DNA from: Halorubrum salinum
GTDB lineage: Archaea > Halobacteriota > Halobacteria > Halobacteriales > Haloferacaceae
Direction of reading: 5' to 3'
Length of the DNA: 64,000 nucleotides
Assembly: GCF_024494575.1 (NCBI RefSeq)
Contig: NZ_JANHDO010000003.1
Span: 62,001 to 126,000 of the forward strand
Shown here: positions 15,703 to 32,448 of the stretch, piece by piece
How positions within the stretch are numbered: position 1 is the stretch's first letter
How the letters are laid out: the number at the start of each line of letters is the position of its first letter
Notes under the pieces: generated by a model
What the model saw: only the letters and a program-made list of their open reading frames with translations
Databases searched by the model: none
What the model was told of the DNA's origin: nothing
Translations under genes and position numbers: made by a program

Positions 15703-16296
15703 TCAGACCGACGCGAGGAAGTTCGCGATGAGGTCGTGGCCAGACGGGGTGAGCACGCTCTCCGGGTGGAACTGCACCGCCTCGATCGGGTGCTCGCGGT
15801 GTCGGACGCCCATCACGATGGACTCACCGTCGTGATCGGTCGTCGCGGTCACCTCGAAGACGTCCGGCACCTCGACCGCGGCGAGCGAGTGGTACCGCCC
15901 GGCGCGGAACTCCTGATCGAGTCCTTCGAAGACGCCCTCGCCGTCGTGGTCGACGGGGAACGCCTTCCCGTGGATCGGTTCCGGCGCGTGTCCCACCACG
16001 CCACCGTACTCGTAGACGGCGGCTTCGAGGCCGAGACAGACGCCGAGCGTGGGTACCGTGGGAGACAGCTCCCGCAGAACCTCCGCAGTGACGCCCACGT
16101 CGCGTTCGTTCTTCGGGTGGCCGGGACCGGGGCTGATGAGGATCGCGTCGGGCTCTGCTCCCTCGACGTCGGCGAGCGACGCGGTGTTTTTGAACACCTC
16201 GATCTCGATCGCTTCGTCGTCGTCGGGTTGGTCGGAGACGTACTCGACGAGGTTGTAGGTGAACGAGTCGAAGTTGTCGATCACGACGACCTTCAT
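15703..16296 (-). CDS. trpG: Anthranilate synthase glutamine amidotransferase subunit
   Basis: Supplies ammonia from glutamine to TrpE; 197 residues, class I amidotransferase. The nucleophile Cys is in GVCLGLEAAVYEYGG, and the catalytic His and Glu are in AVQFHPES. The residues after CLG are LE instead of the usual HQ, which is unusual but leaves the catalytic triad intact. Its ATG overlaps the trpE stop by 4 bases. Last gene of trpD-F-E-G. Confidence 0.92.
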   Translation of the reverse strand: MKVVVIDNFDSFTYNLVEYVSDQPDDDEAIEIEVFKNTASLADVEGAEPDAILISPGPGHPKNERDVGVTAEVLRELSPTVPTLGVCLGLEAAVYEYGGVVGHAPEPIHGKAFPVDHDGEGVFEGLDQEFRAGRYHSLAAVEVPDVFEVTATTDHDGESIVMGVRHREHPIEAVQFHPESVLTPSGHDLIANFLASV

Positions 16297-17981
16297 TCGT
16301 CGACCTCCGTGCCGGGGGCGAGCGGGTCGATCTCGGGCGAGTCGCCCTCCCGAATGCGGTCGATCGCGGCCAACACGCCGTCCATCTTCTGTTCGGTCTC
16401 CTCGTACTCGGCGGTTGGATCGGAGTCGGCCACGAGTCCCGCGCCGGCCCGGACGGTCACGACCGATTCCTCGCCCGCGTCCTCCAGCGTCGCCGTCCGG
16501 ATCACGATCGCGAAGTCGGCGTCACCGCTCCACGCGTAGTACCCGACGCCGCCGCCGTACGCCTCGCGGGGAGTCGTTTCGAGCTCCTCTATGATCTCCA
16601 TCGCCCGCACCTTCGGCGCGCCCGTGAGCGTGCCGGCGGGAAACGTCGCGCGCGTCGCGTCGAAGGCGTCCGCGTCGTCCGCGAGGGTGCCCGTCACCGT
16701 CGACTCGATGTGCTGGACGTGGCTGTACTTCAGCACGTTCATGAACTCCTCGACGCGGACCGAGCCGGGCTCCGAGACGCGGCGCACGTCGTTGCGCGCG
16801 AGGTCGACCAACATCGTGTGTTCCGCGCGCTCTTTCGCGTCCGCGAGCATCTCGCCCGCGAGTCGGCGGTCCTCGACGGGGCTCGTCCCGCGCGGACAGG
16901 TGCCGGCGATCGGATTCGAGACGACGCGGTCGCCCCGGACCGACACCAGCGTCTCGGGGCTCGCGCCGACGATGCTGCGGTCGTCGTGGCGCAGCACGTA
17001 CATGTACGGCGAGGGGTTCACCTCGCGCAGCGCCGCGTACAGCCCCAGCGAATCGACCTCGCCGCGAAGCTCGCGGCTCCGCGAGATGACGCCCTGGTAG
17101 ATGTCGCCGTCGAGGACGTGCTGTTTCGCCGTTCTGACGGCCGCCTCGTAGTCGGCCTGCGCGCCGGCCGACTCGGACTCGACGCGAACGCCGTCGGGGT
17201 CGGGCTGAGACGCCGCCCGCAGTTCGTCGGCGACGCGCTCGGCCTCGGCGACGAGGTCGTCGTACACCGCCTCCGGGTCGTCGTCCCCGCCGACCACGGG
17301 CGTGAAGACGAGTTCGACCGTCCCCTCCACCTCGTCGAAGACGACCGTCCGGGTCGTGAGCGCGAACTCGGCGTCCGGGAACTCGGTCTCGGGGCGGTCG
17401 ACGCCGACCTCGTCCAACCAGAGGTCGTAGACGGCCTCGTACGCGAGGAAGCCGACGAACCCCCCGGAGAGTATCTGCCGGTCGGTGTCGGGAAAGCCGC
17501 GGAGGCGCACGTCCGGAAACGCCGCCCGGATCCGGTCGATCGCGTCTCCCTCGGCGGGGCCGAGGTCGGTCGCTCCCGCCGCGGCGGTCCCGCCGCCGCC
17601 CGTTTCGCCGTCGACATCTCCGCCGTCCGCGCCTCCGACGAACGACGCGGCCGGTCCGAGCTCGGTCACTTCGGTTCGGTCGGGGTGGACGGAGACGATG
17701 GCCTCCGGGTCGTAGCCGACGAACGAGTAGCGGGCGTGTTTGTCCGCCTTTCCGCCCGCGGTGAACGCGCCGTCGGGGTCGCTCGACGCGACCTTCTCGC
17801 CGGATTCGAGCAAGAACCCGTACGGGCTGTCGCCGACCAGCGTCGCGTACGCCGCGAGCGGCGTGACGTCCGCGTCGAGCGACGCGGCGACGCGCACGAC
17901 GACCGGTCCCTCGGCGTCGGCGTCGCTCGCGAGGTCGACGAACGTCTCCCTGTCGGTGTCGAGAGGCGTCGAGTCGCTCAT
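16293..17981 (-). CDS. trpE: Anthranilate synthase component I
   Basis: Makes anthranilate from chorismate with TrpG; 562 residues from the ATG at 17981. The chorismate-binding domain fills the C-terminal half: GDIYQGVISRSRELRG, NPSPYMYVLR, SPETLVSVRGDRVVSNPIAGTCPRG, LVDLARNDVRRV and FPAGTLTGAPKVRAMEIIEEL. An N-terminal YGFLLES-type motif suggests the usual tryptophan feedback site. An acidic/Gly insert at about 150-175 looks like a haloarchaeal linker. It overlaps trpF by 4 bases. Confidence 0.94.
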   Translation of the reverse strand: MSDSTPLDTDRETFVDLASDADAEGPVVVRVAASLDADVTPLAAYATLVGDSPYGFLLESGEKVASSDPDGAFTAGGKADKHARYSFVGYDPEAIVSVHPDRTEVTELGPAASFVGGADGGDVDGETGGGGTAAAGATDLGPAEGDAIDRIRAAFPDVRLRGFPDTDRQILSGGFVGFLAYEAVYDLWLDEVGVDRPETEFPDAEFALTTRTVVFDEVEGTVELVFTPVVGGDDDPEAVYDDLVAEAERVADELRAASQPDPDGVRVESESAGAQADYEAAVRTAKQHVLDGDIYQGVISRSRELRGEVDSLGLYAALREVNPSPYMYVLRHDDRSIVGASPETLVSVRGDRVVSNPIAGTCPRGTSPVEDRRLAGEMLADAKERAEHTMLVDLARNDVRRVSEPGSVRVEEFMNVLKYSHVQHIESTVTGTLADDADAFDATRATFPAGTLTGAPKVRAMEIIEELETTPREAYGGGVGYYAWSGDADFAIVIRTATLEDAGEESVVTVRAGAGLVADSDPTAEYEETEQKMDGVLAAIDRIREGDSPEIDPLAPGTEVDE

Positions 17982-18622
17982 GCTAGCTCCATCTCCCGAC
18001 CCGCGTTCGCGACGAAGCGGGCGACCGCGTTGTGGTCCTTCCGGCCGCCCTCCAGTTCGACGCCGGAGGCCACGTCGACAGCGAACGGGTCGGCGGCTCG
18101 GATCGCTTCCGCGACGGTGTCGGGCGTCAGCCCGCCCGCGAGGACGACGGGCGAGGTGAGCCGGTCGGCGAGTTCTCCGGCGCGCGTCCAGTCGTGCGTC
18201 TCGCCGGTTCCGCCCGCGCCCGACTCGTCCGTCGAATCGAGCACGAGCGCGTCGGCGACCGCGTCGAGTTCCTCCGCGCGCCCCGGCTCCGCGGCGTCGA
18301 CGGCGAGGAGCACCTTCCGCTGGGTCTCCGCGCGGATGTACCGGATCTCGTCGGGCGTCCACTCGCCGTGGATCTGAACCGCGTCGGGACCGATCGTCCG
18401 GACGAGTTCGACGACGCGTTCGGCGGAGTCCGGCATCGTGACGAGCGTCGCCGTCACGAACGGCGGCACGTCCGCGAGGAGGTCTGCCGCCGCGGCGGGC
18501 TCCACCTCTCGGGGGGAGTCGACGGGCACCTCGGTGATGACGCCGACCGCGTCGGCTCCGGCGTCGATCGCCGCCCGGAGGTCGGCGTCGCGGGCGAGCC
18601 CGCAGACCTTCACCCGAGCCAT
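17978..18622 (-). CDS. trpF: Phosphoribosylanthranilate isomerase
   Basis: Third step of tryptophan synthesis, a TIM barrel of 214 residues. Visible motifs: the catalytic Cys in ARVKVCGLARDADL, DAVQIHGEW, the catalytic Asp in LLAVDAAEPG, VLAGGLTPDTVAEAI and AVDVASGVELEGGRKD, which binds phosphate. The ATG at 18622 shares one base with the trpD stop (TGATG). Confidence 0.94.
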   Translation of the reverse strand: MARVKVCGLARDADLRAAIDAGADAVGVITEVPVDSPREVEPAAAADLLADVPPFVTATLVTMPDSAERVVELVRTIGPDAVQIHGEWTPDEIRYIRAETQRKVLLAVDAAEPGRAEELDAVADALVLDSTDESGAGGTGETHDWTRAGELADRLTSPVVLAGGLTPDTVAEAIRAADPFAVDVASGVELEGGRKDHNAVARFVANAGREMELA

Positions 18623-19680
18623 CAGTCGTCCTCCGAGGCCGGAGACGCCGTATCCCCGCTGGCCCCGTCCGTCGCCGAATCGTCGCCACAGAGCGCCGCG
18701 AACTTCGTCGCGGCCCCGCCGGAGTCGATCGCGTCGGCGGCGCGCTCGCCGCCGGCGTCGAGCGACTCGGCCTCGCCCGCGACGTAGATCGCCGCGCCGG
18801 CGTTCGCGAGCACGAGGTCCCGTTTCGGCCCCGTCACCGTTCCCTCGACGATCCCGCGGAGGTCCGCGGCGTTCTCCTCGGGCGTCCCGCCCGCGACCGC
18901 CTCGATCGGGGCGCGTTCGAGTCCGAGGTCGGCGGGCTCGATCGTGAACTCCCGCACGTCCTCGCCGTCGACCTCGGCGGCGACCGTCTCGCCGTGGATG
19001 CCGATCTCGTCCATGCCGTCGCCGTGGACGACGAGCGCACGCTCGACCGGCATGTGCGCGAGCGATCGGGCGATCGTCCCGACCAGGTCGGGGTCGTAGA
19101 CGCCGAGCACCTGCGCTTCGGCACCGGCGGGGTTCGTCAGGGGGCCCAGCACGTTGAATATCGTCCGCATGCCGAGCTCCTTCCGCGGGCCGATGACGGC
19201 CTTCATCGCCGGGTGGAACACGGGCGCGAGCATGAACCCGATCCCGTCTCGCTCGATTGCGGCTTCGACCGCGGGCGGTTCGGCCTCGATGTCGGCCCCC
19301 GCGACCTCCAGCACGTCCGCGCTCCCTGAGGACGACGACACCGAGTAGTTGCCGTGCTTGGCGATCGGAACGCCGGCGCCCGCGGCGACGATAGCCGCCG
19401 TCGTCGAGACGTTGATCGTGTTGTAGTCGTCCCCGCCGGTCCCGCAGGTGTCGACGAGCGGTGCTCGATCGGGGTCGATCGTCCGCGCGGCGTCGCGCAT
19501 ACCCTGTGCGAAGCCGGCGATCTCGGCCTCCGTTTCCCCCTTCGCTCGAAGCGCAGCCAGAAGGGCACCGATCTGCGCCTCCGTCGCCTCCTCGAAGACG
19601 AGGCTCGCGGCCTCTCGCGCCTGTTCGACCGTCAGGTCTTCTCCCTCGGTCACGCGTTCGACCGTCTCGTTGAGATTCAT
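18622..19680 (-). CDS. trpD: Anthranilate phosphoribosyltransferase
   Basis: Second step of tryptophan synthesis; 352 residues. Family motifs are DTCGTGGDDYNTINVST (about 77-93), AKHGNYSVSSSSGSADVLE and MFNVLGPLTNPA-like IFNVLGPLTNPA. I chose the ATG at 19680: a GGTGA ribosome-binding site (reverse of 19686-19690) lies 5 bases upstream and the family N-terminus fits. An in-frame ATG at 19719 would start inside the predicted operator. First gene of trpDFEG; trpCBA are not in the window. Confidence 0.94.
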   Translation of the reverse strand: MNLNETVERVTEGEDLTVEQAREAASLVFEEATEAQIGALLAALRAKGETEAEIAGFAQGMRDAARTIDPDRAPLVDTCGTGGDDYNTINVSTTAAIVAAGAGVPIAKHGNYSVSSSSGSADVLEVAGADIEAEPPAVEAAIERDGIGFMLAPVFHPAMKAVIGPRKELGMRTIFNVLGPLTNPAGAEAQVLGVYDPDLVGTIARSLAHMPVERALVVHGDGMDEIGIHGETVAAEVDGEDVREFTIEPADLGLERAPIEAVAGGTPEENAADLRGIVEGTVTGPKRDLVLANAGAAIYVAGEAESLDAGGERAADAIDSGGAATKFAALCGDDSATDGASGDTASPASEDD

Positions 19681-19685
19681 CGTGT

Positions 19686-19690
19686 TCACC
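19686..19690 (-). promoter_or_regulatory. Ribosome binding site of trpD
   Basis: Reverse-strand GGTGA, 5 bases before the ATG at 19680, supports that start over the in-frame ATG at 19719. Confidence 0.5.
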
Positions 19691-19712
19691 AATGTAGTAT
19701 TCCGCGTTGTGA

Positions 19713-19728
19713 TGTACAAGTATGTACA
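19713..19728 (-). promoter_or_regulatory. Paired TGTACA boxes, candidate TrpY-type operator of trpDFEG
   Basis: Two copies of the palindrome TGTACA (19713-19718 and 19723-19728) have centres 10 bases apart, one helical turn. They sit just downstream of the TATA-like box (reverse strand TTAAATTA at 19730-19737) and over the expected transcription start near 19708. In Methanothermobacter the repressor TrpY binds TRP boxes with this consensus. A bound repressor here would block initiation. Confidence 0.6.
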
Positions 19729-19729
19729 C

Positions 19730-19737
19730 TAATTTAA
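19730..19737 (-). promoter_or_regulatory. TATA-like box of trpDFEG
   Basis: Reverse-strand TTAAATTA is the only AT-rich octamer upstream of trpD. It predicts initiation near 19708 and a leader of about 28 bases, consistent with the ribosome-binding site present before trpD. Confidence 0.55.
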
Positions 19738-19797
19738 CGCTGTCGCCGCCGCTGTCCGTGCGTCGATGTCGCAAGCACGGCCGCCGGGGCCAACCGG

Positions 19798-31017: not shown

Positions 31018-32448
31018 CTACTCCTCGTCGAGCGCCTGCCACGAGAGCCGCGGGCTCCGCGCGGCCGCGACTTGATCGATCCGCCCCGCCGCAGTGCGGT
31101 TCGGCGAGGTGGAGAGCGCCTCGTCGGTGTCGGCGTACGCGAGGTTGAACGCCTCGGCGAGGTCGTCGAGCGACGACTTCCCCTCGATCTCCGTGGGCTC
31201 CGTCAGCATGGCTTCCGGCACCATCTCCGGCCACTTCGTCGTCGGCGGGTGGACGCCGAAATCCAGCATGCGCTTCGCCACGTCGGCGGCGTCGCGGTCG
31301 CCCGCCGTCGCCGCGAACTCGTGGTGGAACGGGCCGTACGGCACGTCGAGGTCGATCCGCTCTGCGAGGTAGTTCGCGTTGAGTACGGCCTTCGCGGCCG
31401 CGTCCGCGAGCCCCTCGTCGCCGAGACGGGCGATGTACGCGTACGCCTTTATCAGGACGAGCCAGTTGCCCGCGAACCCGTGGACCTTTCCGATCGTGTT
31501 GTCGGGCTCGAACCGCTCGTAGCCGCCGTCTCCCTCGGTCTTCCGGACGCGGGGCGTGGGCAGGAACTCCGCCAGCTCGTCGACGACGCCGACGGGACCC
31601 GCTCCGGGACCACCGCCGCCGTGCGGGGTCGCGAACGTCTTGTGGACGTTGTAGTGCATCACGTCGAACCCCATGTCGCCGGGGCGACCGCGGCCGAGCA
31701 GCGCGTTGAGGTTCGCGCCGTCGTAATACAGGAGTCCGCCGGCGTCGTGGACGATGTCTGCGATCTCCGTGATGTCGCGCTCGAAGAGTCCGACCGTGTT
31801 CGGGTTCGTTAACATCAGGGCGGCGGTGTCGTCGCCGACGGCCGCCTCCAATGCCTCGACGTCGACGCGGCCGTCCTCGCCGGAGGGCAACTCGACCACG
31901 TCGTACCCCGCCGTGGCGGCCGTCGCGAAGTTCGTCCCGTGTGCCGACGCCGGGATGACGACCTCCGAGCGGTCGTTACCGTGGTGCTCGTGGTACGCCT
32001 TCGCGACGAGGATCCCGGTCAGCTCGCCGGCCGCGCCCGCGGGCGGCTGAAGCGTGACCGCGTCCATGCCCCCGATGTCGCCGAGGAACTCCTGTAAGCG
32101 GTACTGGAGTTCGAGGGACCCCTGAACCGACCGCTCGGAGCGGTCCGGATGGACGGCCGCGTTCGGGTCGGCCGCGACGTCCTCGGTGAACTTCGGGTTG
32201 TACTTCATCGTACAGCTCCCGAGCGGATACGGTCCCGAGTCGATCGCCCAGTTCATCTGCGAGAGCCGGGTGTAGTGGCGGGCGACCTCCGGCTCTGACG
32301 GCGCGGGCAGCGTGAGCGAGTCGCGCGTCAGGTCGTCCGGCAGCGGCGAGGCGTCGCTCGCGTCGACGGACTCCTCCGTCTTCTCCGAGAGCAGCGGCTC
32401 GTGGACGGCCTCGTCCTCGCGCGTGTATCGCGCCTGATCGTGGATCAA
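31018..32448 (-). CDS. gcvPB: Glycine dehydrogenase (decarboxylating) subunit 2
   Basis: PLP-binding half of the split P protein of the glycine cleavage system; 476 residues. The PLP Lys is in MHYNVHKTFATPHGGGGPGAG, preceded by LMLTNPNTVGLFERDI and YYDGANLNALLG. MNWAIDSGPYPLGSCTMKYNPK marks the N-terminal part. It lies one base after the subunit 1 stop, so the halves are made together. Confidence 0.95.
   Translation of the reverse strand: MIHDQARYTREDEAVHEPLLSEKTEESVDASDASPLPDDLTRDSLTLPAPSEPEVARHYTRLSQMNWAIDSGPYPLGSCTMKYNPKFTEDVAADPNAAVHPDRSERSVQGSLELQYRLQEFLGDIGGMDAVTLQPPAGAAGELTGILVAKAYHEHHGNDRSEVVIPASAHGTNFATAATAGYDVVELPSGEDGRVDVEALEAAVGDDTAALMLTNPNTVGLFERDITEIADIVHDAGGLLYYDGANLNALLGRGRPGDMGFDVMHYNVHKTFATPHGGGGPGAGPVGVVDELAEFLPTPRVRKTEGDGGYERFEPDNTIGKVHGFAGNWLVLIKAYAYIARLGDEGLADAAAKAVLNANYLAERIDLDVPYGPFHHEFAATAGDRDAADVAKRMLDFGVHPPTTKWPEMVPEAMLTEPTEIEGKSSLDDLAEAFNLAYADTDEALSTSPNRTAAGRIDQVAAARSPRLSWQALDEE

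Follow-up and report, generated by a model that had tools for sequence, protein, structure and literature searches.

Two TGTACA palindromes lie directly before the trpD gene of Halorubrum salinum, and they raise the question of what regulates the tryptophan genes of this haloarchaeon. We addressed it in a window of 64,000 nucleotides, by which we mean the whole stretch of DNA analyzed. TGTACA is the published TRP-box consensus of Methanothermobacter TrpY. In the window, two perfect copies spaced 10 bp from centre to centre occupy positions 19713-19718 and 19723-19728 of the minus-strand trpD promoter (TGTACAAGTATGTACA being the window sequence at 19713-19728). Read on the minus strand, this promoter has the order CGACAG-C-GTTAAAT-TAG-TGTACA-TACT-TGTACA-TCACAACGCGGAATACTACATTGGTGAACACG-ATG, where the ATG is that of trpD. 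The initial annotation had described the pair as lying one helical turn apart between a TATA-like box and the start of trpDFEG, which the coordinates confirm, and its span of 19713-19737 takes in both boxes plus most of the TATA-like element. Downstream of the pair, trpD, trpF, trpE, and trpG form an overlapping operon. The features are as follows:

19739..19745, minus strand: BRE-like CGACAGC, upstream of the TATA box (class consensus CGACANGC)
19732..19738, minus strand: TATA-like box GTTAAAT (class consensus CTTAAG)
19712..19729, no strand assigned: putative operator dyad, here GTGTAC-N6-GTACAT (class consensus ATGTAC-N6-GTACAT)
19723..19728, minus strand: TGTACA unit 1, the TATA-proximal half of the putative operator, kept as ATGTAC in the trpD promoters of 43 genera
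19713..19718, minus strand: TGTACA unit 2, 10 bp from unit 1, GTACAT in most families and degenerate in family f4
19693..19698, minus strand: degenerate third unit, ACTACA, 30 bp from unit 1 in the predicted 5' leader
19687..19690, minus strand: Shine-Dalgarno-like GGTG (class consensus TACATTGGTG)
18622..19680, minus strand: trpD, the first gene of the operon (ATG at 19680-19678; the protein match begins at 19680)
17978..18622, minus strand: trpF (N-terminus MARVKVCG)
16293..17981, minus strand: trpE
15703..16296, minus strand: trpG

The window has a single TGTACA-N4-TGTACA, and 100 dinucleotide shuffles yielded none. The motif is likewise single in the whole genome (2.73 Mb), for which the reversed control gave 0. 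When the genome was searched with spacings of N0-30, the sole other place was a cluster of four TGTACA within 66 bp (G000:C2:111906-111971; L003 1493-1558). This cluster is upstream of a gene for a Tat-type secreted protein and adjoins an IS transposase gene, and no link to tryptophan was seen at the locus.

Among 194 genomes of Halobacteria, the exact pair was found in 40 (versus 4 for the reversed control), and all 22 sampled genomes of the own genus have it. Moreover, 25 of the 30 exact-pair loci fetched (own genome included) are at trpD according to tblastn. We then turn to 80 trpD promoters collected by gene position and blind to the motif, which have a layout common to the sampled families: CGACANGCTTAAG, about 3 bases, ATGTAC-N6-GTACAT, a 5' leader often with CGTACATTGGTG, and the ATG. 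With one promoter counted per genus, at least 10 of the 12 dyad positions are matched in 95% of 43 genera versus 0.8% of shuffled sequences, and the dyad starts 47-60 bases ahead of the aligned protein start. Aligning trpD promoters, a check proposed in the initial annotation, thus found the site conserved across the class Halobacteria. For the most part, it is better described as the imperfect dyad ATGTAC-N6-GTACAT, with the perfect double hexamer belonging to the own genus and a few others. Family f5 has two perfect boxes 20 bp apart. Family f4 has a degenerate second half-site (TTTGRACAT), which counts against a TrpY operator. As for the third unit, its class consensus is CGTACA, with CGTACAT kept in most families; it may be a working part of the operator or, alternatively, reflect a constraint on the leader or on ribosome binding.

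Other recurrent sequences were met along the way. A wider genus regulon marked by TGTAC-N6-GTACA was considered and rejected, as the recurrent matches were the trpD-type pair itself and TGTACGATGAAGTACA (window position 32199), which, judging by its constancy, looks like coding sequence. Separately, TGTACAACCCTGTACA is shared by four genomes of the own genus (L026 1501-1516, G011, G133, and G170); at L026, the only one of these loci that was read, it is flanked by a TFB-like gene and a gene for a membrane protein. Family f4 has a TAATTGAAGGTTTCGAATCGG-like element ahead of the TATA box of trpD, of which f2, f7, and f9 have a variant form (L062, L067, L075, L082-L084, L087, L089, L094, L096, L099, L103, L105, L107, L114, L115, L118, and L123); perhaps it serves as a divergent promoter or as another site of regulation.

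The remaining tryptophan genes of the genome are in a second operon, trpC-trpB-trpA-aroA', whose last gene was identified by tblastn with 2-amino-3,7-dideoxy-D-threo-hept-6-ulosonate synthase. The initial annotation had advised looking for TGTACA pairs before trpCBA and other tryptophan genes, and trpCBA does carry three TGTACA-like units. In 20 genera, the region upstream of trpC reads GCAAGCCTTATGTACA-N4-CGTNCA-N4-TGTACA-NNAATG, its three units following one another every 10 bp exactly. Of these, the first overlaps the TATA box and the last is a few bases ahead of the ATG. At least 14 of the 18 positions of this footprint are matched in 19 of the 20 genera versus 0 of 1000 shuffles, and in the own genome the units are TGCACA, AGTGCA, and TGTACA, again at 10-bp steps. 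Unit spacings are accordingly 0, 10, and 30 at trpD and 0, 10, and 20 at trpC.

A candidate regulator was reached by a Pfam ACT-domain search of the own genome and inspection of the matches. This is a 166-residue protein of the TrpY family (G000:C1:62931-63419), the single copy in the genome, with an HTH and an ACT domain. It scores 232 bits against NCBIfam NF053754 (TrpY family transcription regulator; cut-off 180) over residues 2-164, while the ACT domain (PF01842; 31.2 bits versus a cut-off of 27) covers residues 97-130 in the C-terminal half. The TrpY homolog that the initial annotation advised looking for is therefore present, and in fact NF053754 is found in 194 of 194 Halobacteria, nearly always in single copy, and in 145 of 148 genomes of the phylum sample. 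When 31 proteins of the family were aligned, a vDRRvvdxT motif proved common to members from Methanobacteriaceae through Halobacteria, and this stretch is a putative recognition helix. We looked for a solved structure of the TrpY family and found none.

The own trpY is located away from the trp genes (L038 136-1167), with radA (named from sequence) on one side and an apparent helicase gene on the other. No TGTACA was found upstream of it, and the upstream regions of 30 haloarchaeal trpY genes, used as a control, scored near background. The trpD and trpC footprints are far above shuffles and also above these trpY upstream regions. Autoregulation of trpY is known from Methanothermobacter; for Halobacteria we reject an arrangement of that type, as the trpY promoters are without a box. 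Both the lack of linkage and the box-free promoter of the own trpY count against the TrpY reading, though the lack of linkage lowers the claim of an identical organization rather than that of function.

Since the box and trpY are both universal in Halobacteria, their presence or absence there cannot tie one to the other. In the phylum sample, 13 non-haloarchaeal genomes have the exact pair, versus 6 with the reversed pattern. With one locus examined in each of the 13, seven are at aromatic genes, namely trpD (two), trpC-trpB (two), and trpE, a trpB2-type gene, and aroA' (one each), the trpE locus being divergent from a prephenate dehydratase gene; the other matches may well be background, because the reversed pattern gave 6 genomes. 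Non-aromatic matches to the phylum-wide pattern were set aside: two are CRISPR-looking repeat arrays (L248 and L255), one is inside a gene (L247), one adjoins an ECF-type ATPase gene (L245), one is near a pyruvate carboxylase subunit-like gene (L246), and at one no gene was recognised (L253). Four Methanobacteriaceae genomes were reached through a named protein, and in three of them the NF053754 gene and trpE are divergent. Here, the trpY-trpE intergenic regions have TGTACA-like units at steps of about 10 bp, as exemplified by TGTATA-N4-TGTACA in L263 and TGTACA-N4-TATACA in L265; the arrangement is the one described for Methanothermobacter (PMC6737238). Family f19 (two genomes of one lineage) is without a full TrpY match, and while trpEGDCFB is kept there, no box is found upstream of trpE; this supports the link between TrpY and the box, though from a single lineage. 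Two genomes (G278 and G273) were left out of this comparison of losses as too incomplete, and in another (G232 of family f25; 78% complete) the trpC promoter matches 13 of the 18 positions. Both f19 genomes (L278 and L279) have a common sequence of their own upstream of trpE, approximately ATATATGTCAAAA..AAATAT, which is perhaps a replacement operator.

Taken together, we consider the paired TGTACA to be the operator of trpDFEG, one of two in a class-wide trp/aromatic regulon, and most likely read by TrpY, with a probability of roughly 0.78. The initial annotation's view of a TrpY-like operator gains support from the conservation at trpD and trpC, the universal TrpY family, and the association with trp and aromatic genes in methanogens. 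A class-wide TrpY/TRP-box repressor system is hence the best reading, and a well-supported one, in which we infer the binding of TrpY and the response to tryptophan. Under such a model, TrpY dimers would bind the units on one face of the DNA helix, with tryptophan sensed by and bound to the ACT domain. Tryptophan-loaded TrpY would then occupy the region from the TATA box to the start, and block either the assembly of the preinitiation complex or RNA polymerase. Plentiful tryptophan would thus shut both trp operons, and exhaustion of the aromatic amino acids would open them.

Other readings of the site have to be weighed against this one. That the pair is a chance meeting of two palindromic hexamers could be argued from the single boxes, which are not rare in the window (7 TGTACA versus 1.75 expected), but the uniqueness of the pair in the genome and its conservation over 43 genera refute a chance origin and leave it a negligible probability. 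The initial annotation had held chance to be improbable, and the shuffles bear this out as well. Somewhat less remote, yet still very improbable, is that the conserved sequence merely represents a core promoter and 5' leader (BRE, TATA, initiator, and Shine-Dalgarno) with no regulator site in it. The box is indeed flanked by CGACANGCTTAAG and GGTG, which are ordinary promoter or leader elements and also conserved. However, units at 10-bp steps stand in differing registers to the TATA box and the start at trpD, at trpC, and at the methanogen trp and aroA' genes, and TGTACA units are absent upstream of trpY.

A more serious alternative, although an unlikely one, is a real trp operator bound by some other regulator, for instance the Lrp/AsnC-type LrpA2 (Trh1, OE2776F). 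Withholding aromatic amino acids from Halobacterium salinarum induces LrpA2 14.9-fold, and a role for this protein in regulating their biosynthesis has been proposed (PMC4162585). Moreover, the own trpY is unlinked to the trp genes, and in Thermococcus, trp is not regulated by TkTrpY, which shares 42% identity with MtTrpY (PMC6737238), so that membership in the family alone does not give function. Against LrpA2, the box reaches methanogens and the trpY-trpE intergenic region of Methanobacteriaceae, where the linked regulator is of the TrpY family, and the putative recognition-helix motif is common across that family. The proposal for LrpA2 also leaves its direct control open (PMC4162585).

A regulon of the kind proposed here, with TrpY as its probable reader, is supported by the expression data of H. 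salinarum, in which all seven trp genes and the aroA' homolog OE1472F are induced without aromatic amino acids, such that the operons trpCBA-aroA' and trpDFEG are both in the induced set, and three Na+-dependent transporters are likewise induced (PMC4162585). In two genomes of genus g25 (L005 and L006, 1501-1522), a Na+-dependent transporter gene has the exact pair 3 bases ahead of its ATG, and this gene is possibly a further member of the regulon that encodes an aromatic amino acid transporter. The wider proposition, that the box and TrpY make up a regulon for aromatic amino acids that is older than the divergence of Halobacteriota from Methanobacteriota, includes in Halobacteria aroA', with which the archaeal aromatic pathway begins, and in some genomes a Na+-dependent transporter gene, and has its repression tuned by the number and spacing of the units, has in our estimate an even chance of being right. 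The branch of haloarchaeal TrpY homologs has been described as unexamined, with a function that could not be estimated (PMC6737238). With a candidate operator now specified class-wide for the two trp operons, together with one regulator candidate that is universal, the function of haloarchaeal TrpY and the direct regulator of trp become testable in Haloferax volcanii. The findings also suggest that two archaeal phyla have kept one trp regulatory circuit, and they offer haloarchaeal genetics a possible promoter repressible by tryptophan. In the open-access literature searched, which leaves most subscription papers outside, the haloarchaeal regulon appears undescribed, though the kind of system is known.

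Among known systems, the closest comparison is with Methanothermobacter thermautotrophicus (trpY-trpEGCFBAD), in which a TrpY-family gene is divergent from trpE with TRP boxes between them, and where TrpY binding to these boxes has been described (PMC6737238). Halobacteria resemble it in the TGTACA-like units at steps of about 10 bp at trp promoters, the ACT-domain TrpY-family protein in the genome, and the trp genes as targets. Unlike in M. thermautotrophicus, however, the haloarchaeal trpY lies at a distance from the trp genes and its own promoter is without a box, and the trp genes are in two operons, each with a putative operator and one including aroA'. Tar (TK0271) of Thermococcus kodakarensis is likewise an archaeal regulator of trp and aromatic operons that answers to aromatic amino acids, but it is an activator and not a TrpY protein, and TkTrpY is without control of trp there (PMC6737238). 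LrpA2 (Trh1) of H. salinarum shares with the haloarchaeal TrpY candidate a suggested part in regulating aromatic amino acid biosynthesis (PMC4162585), but it belongs to the Lrp-like family rather than to that of TrpY.
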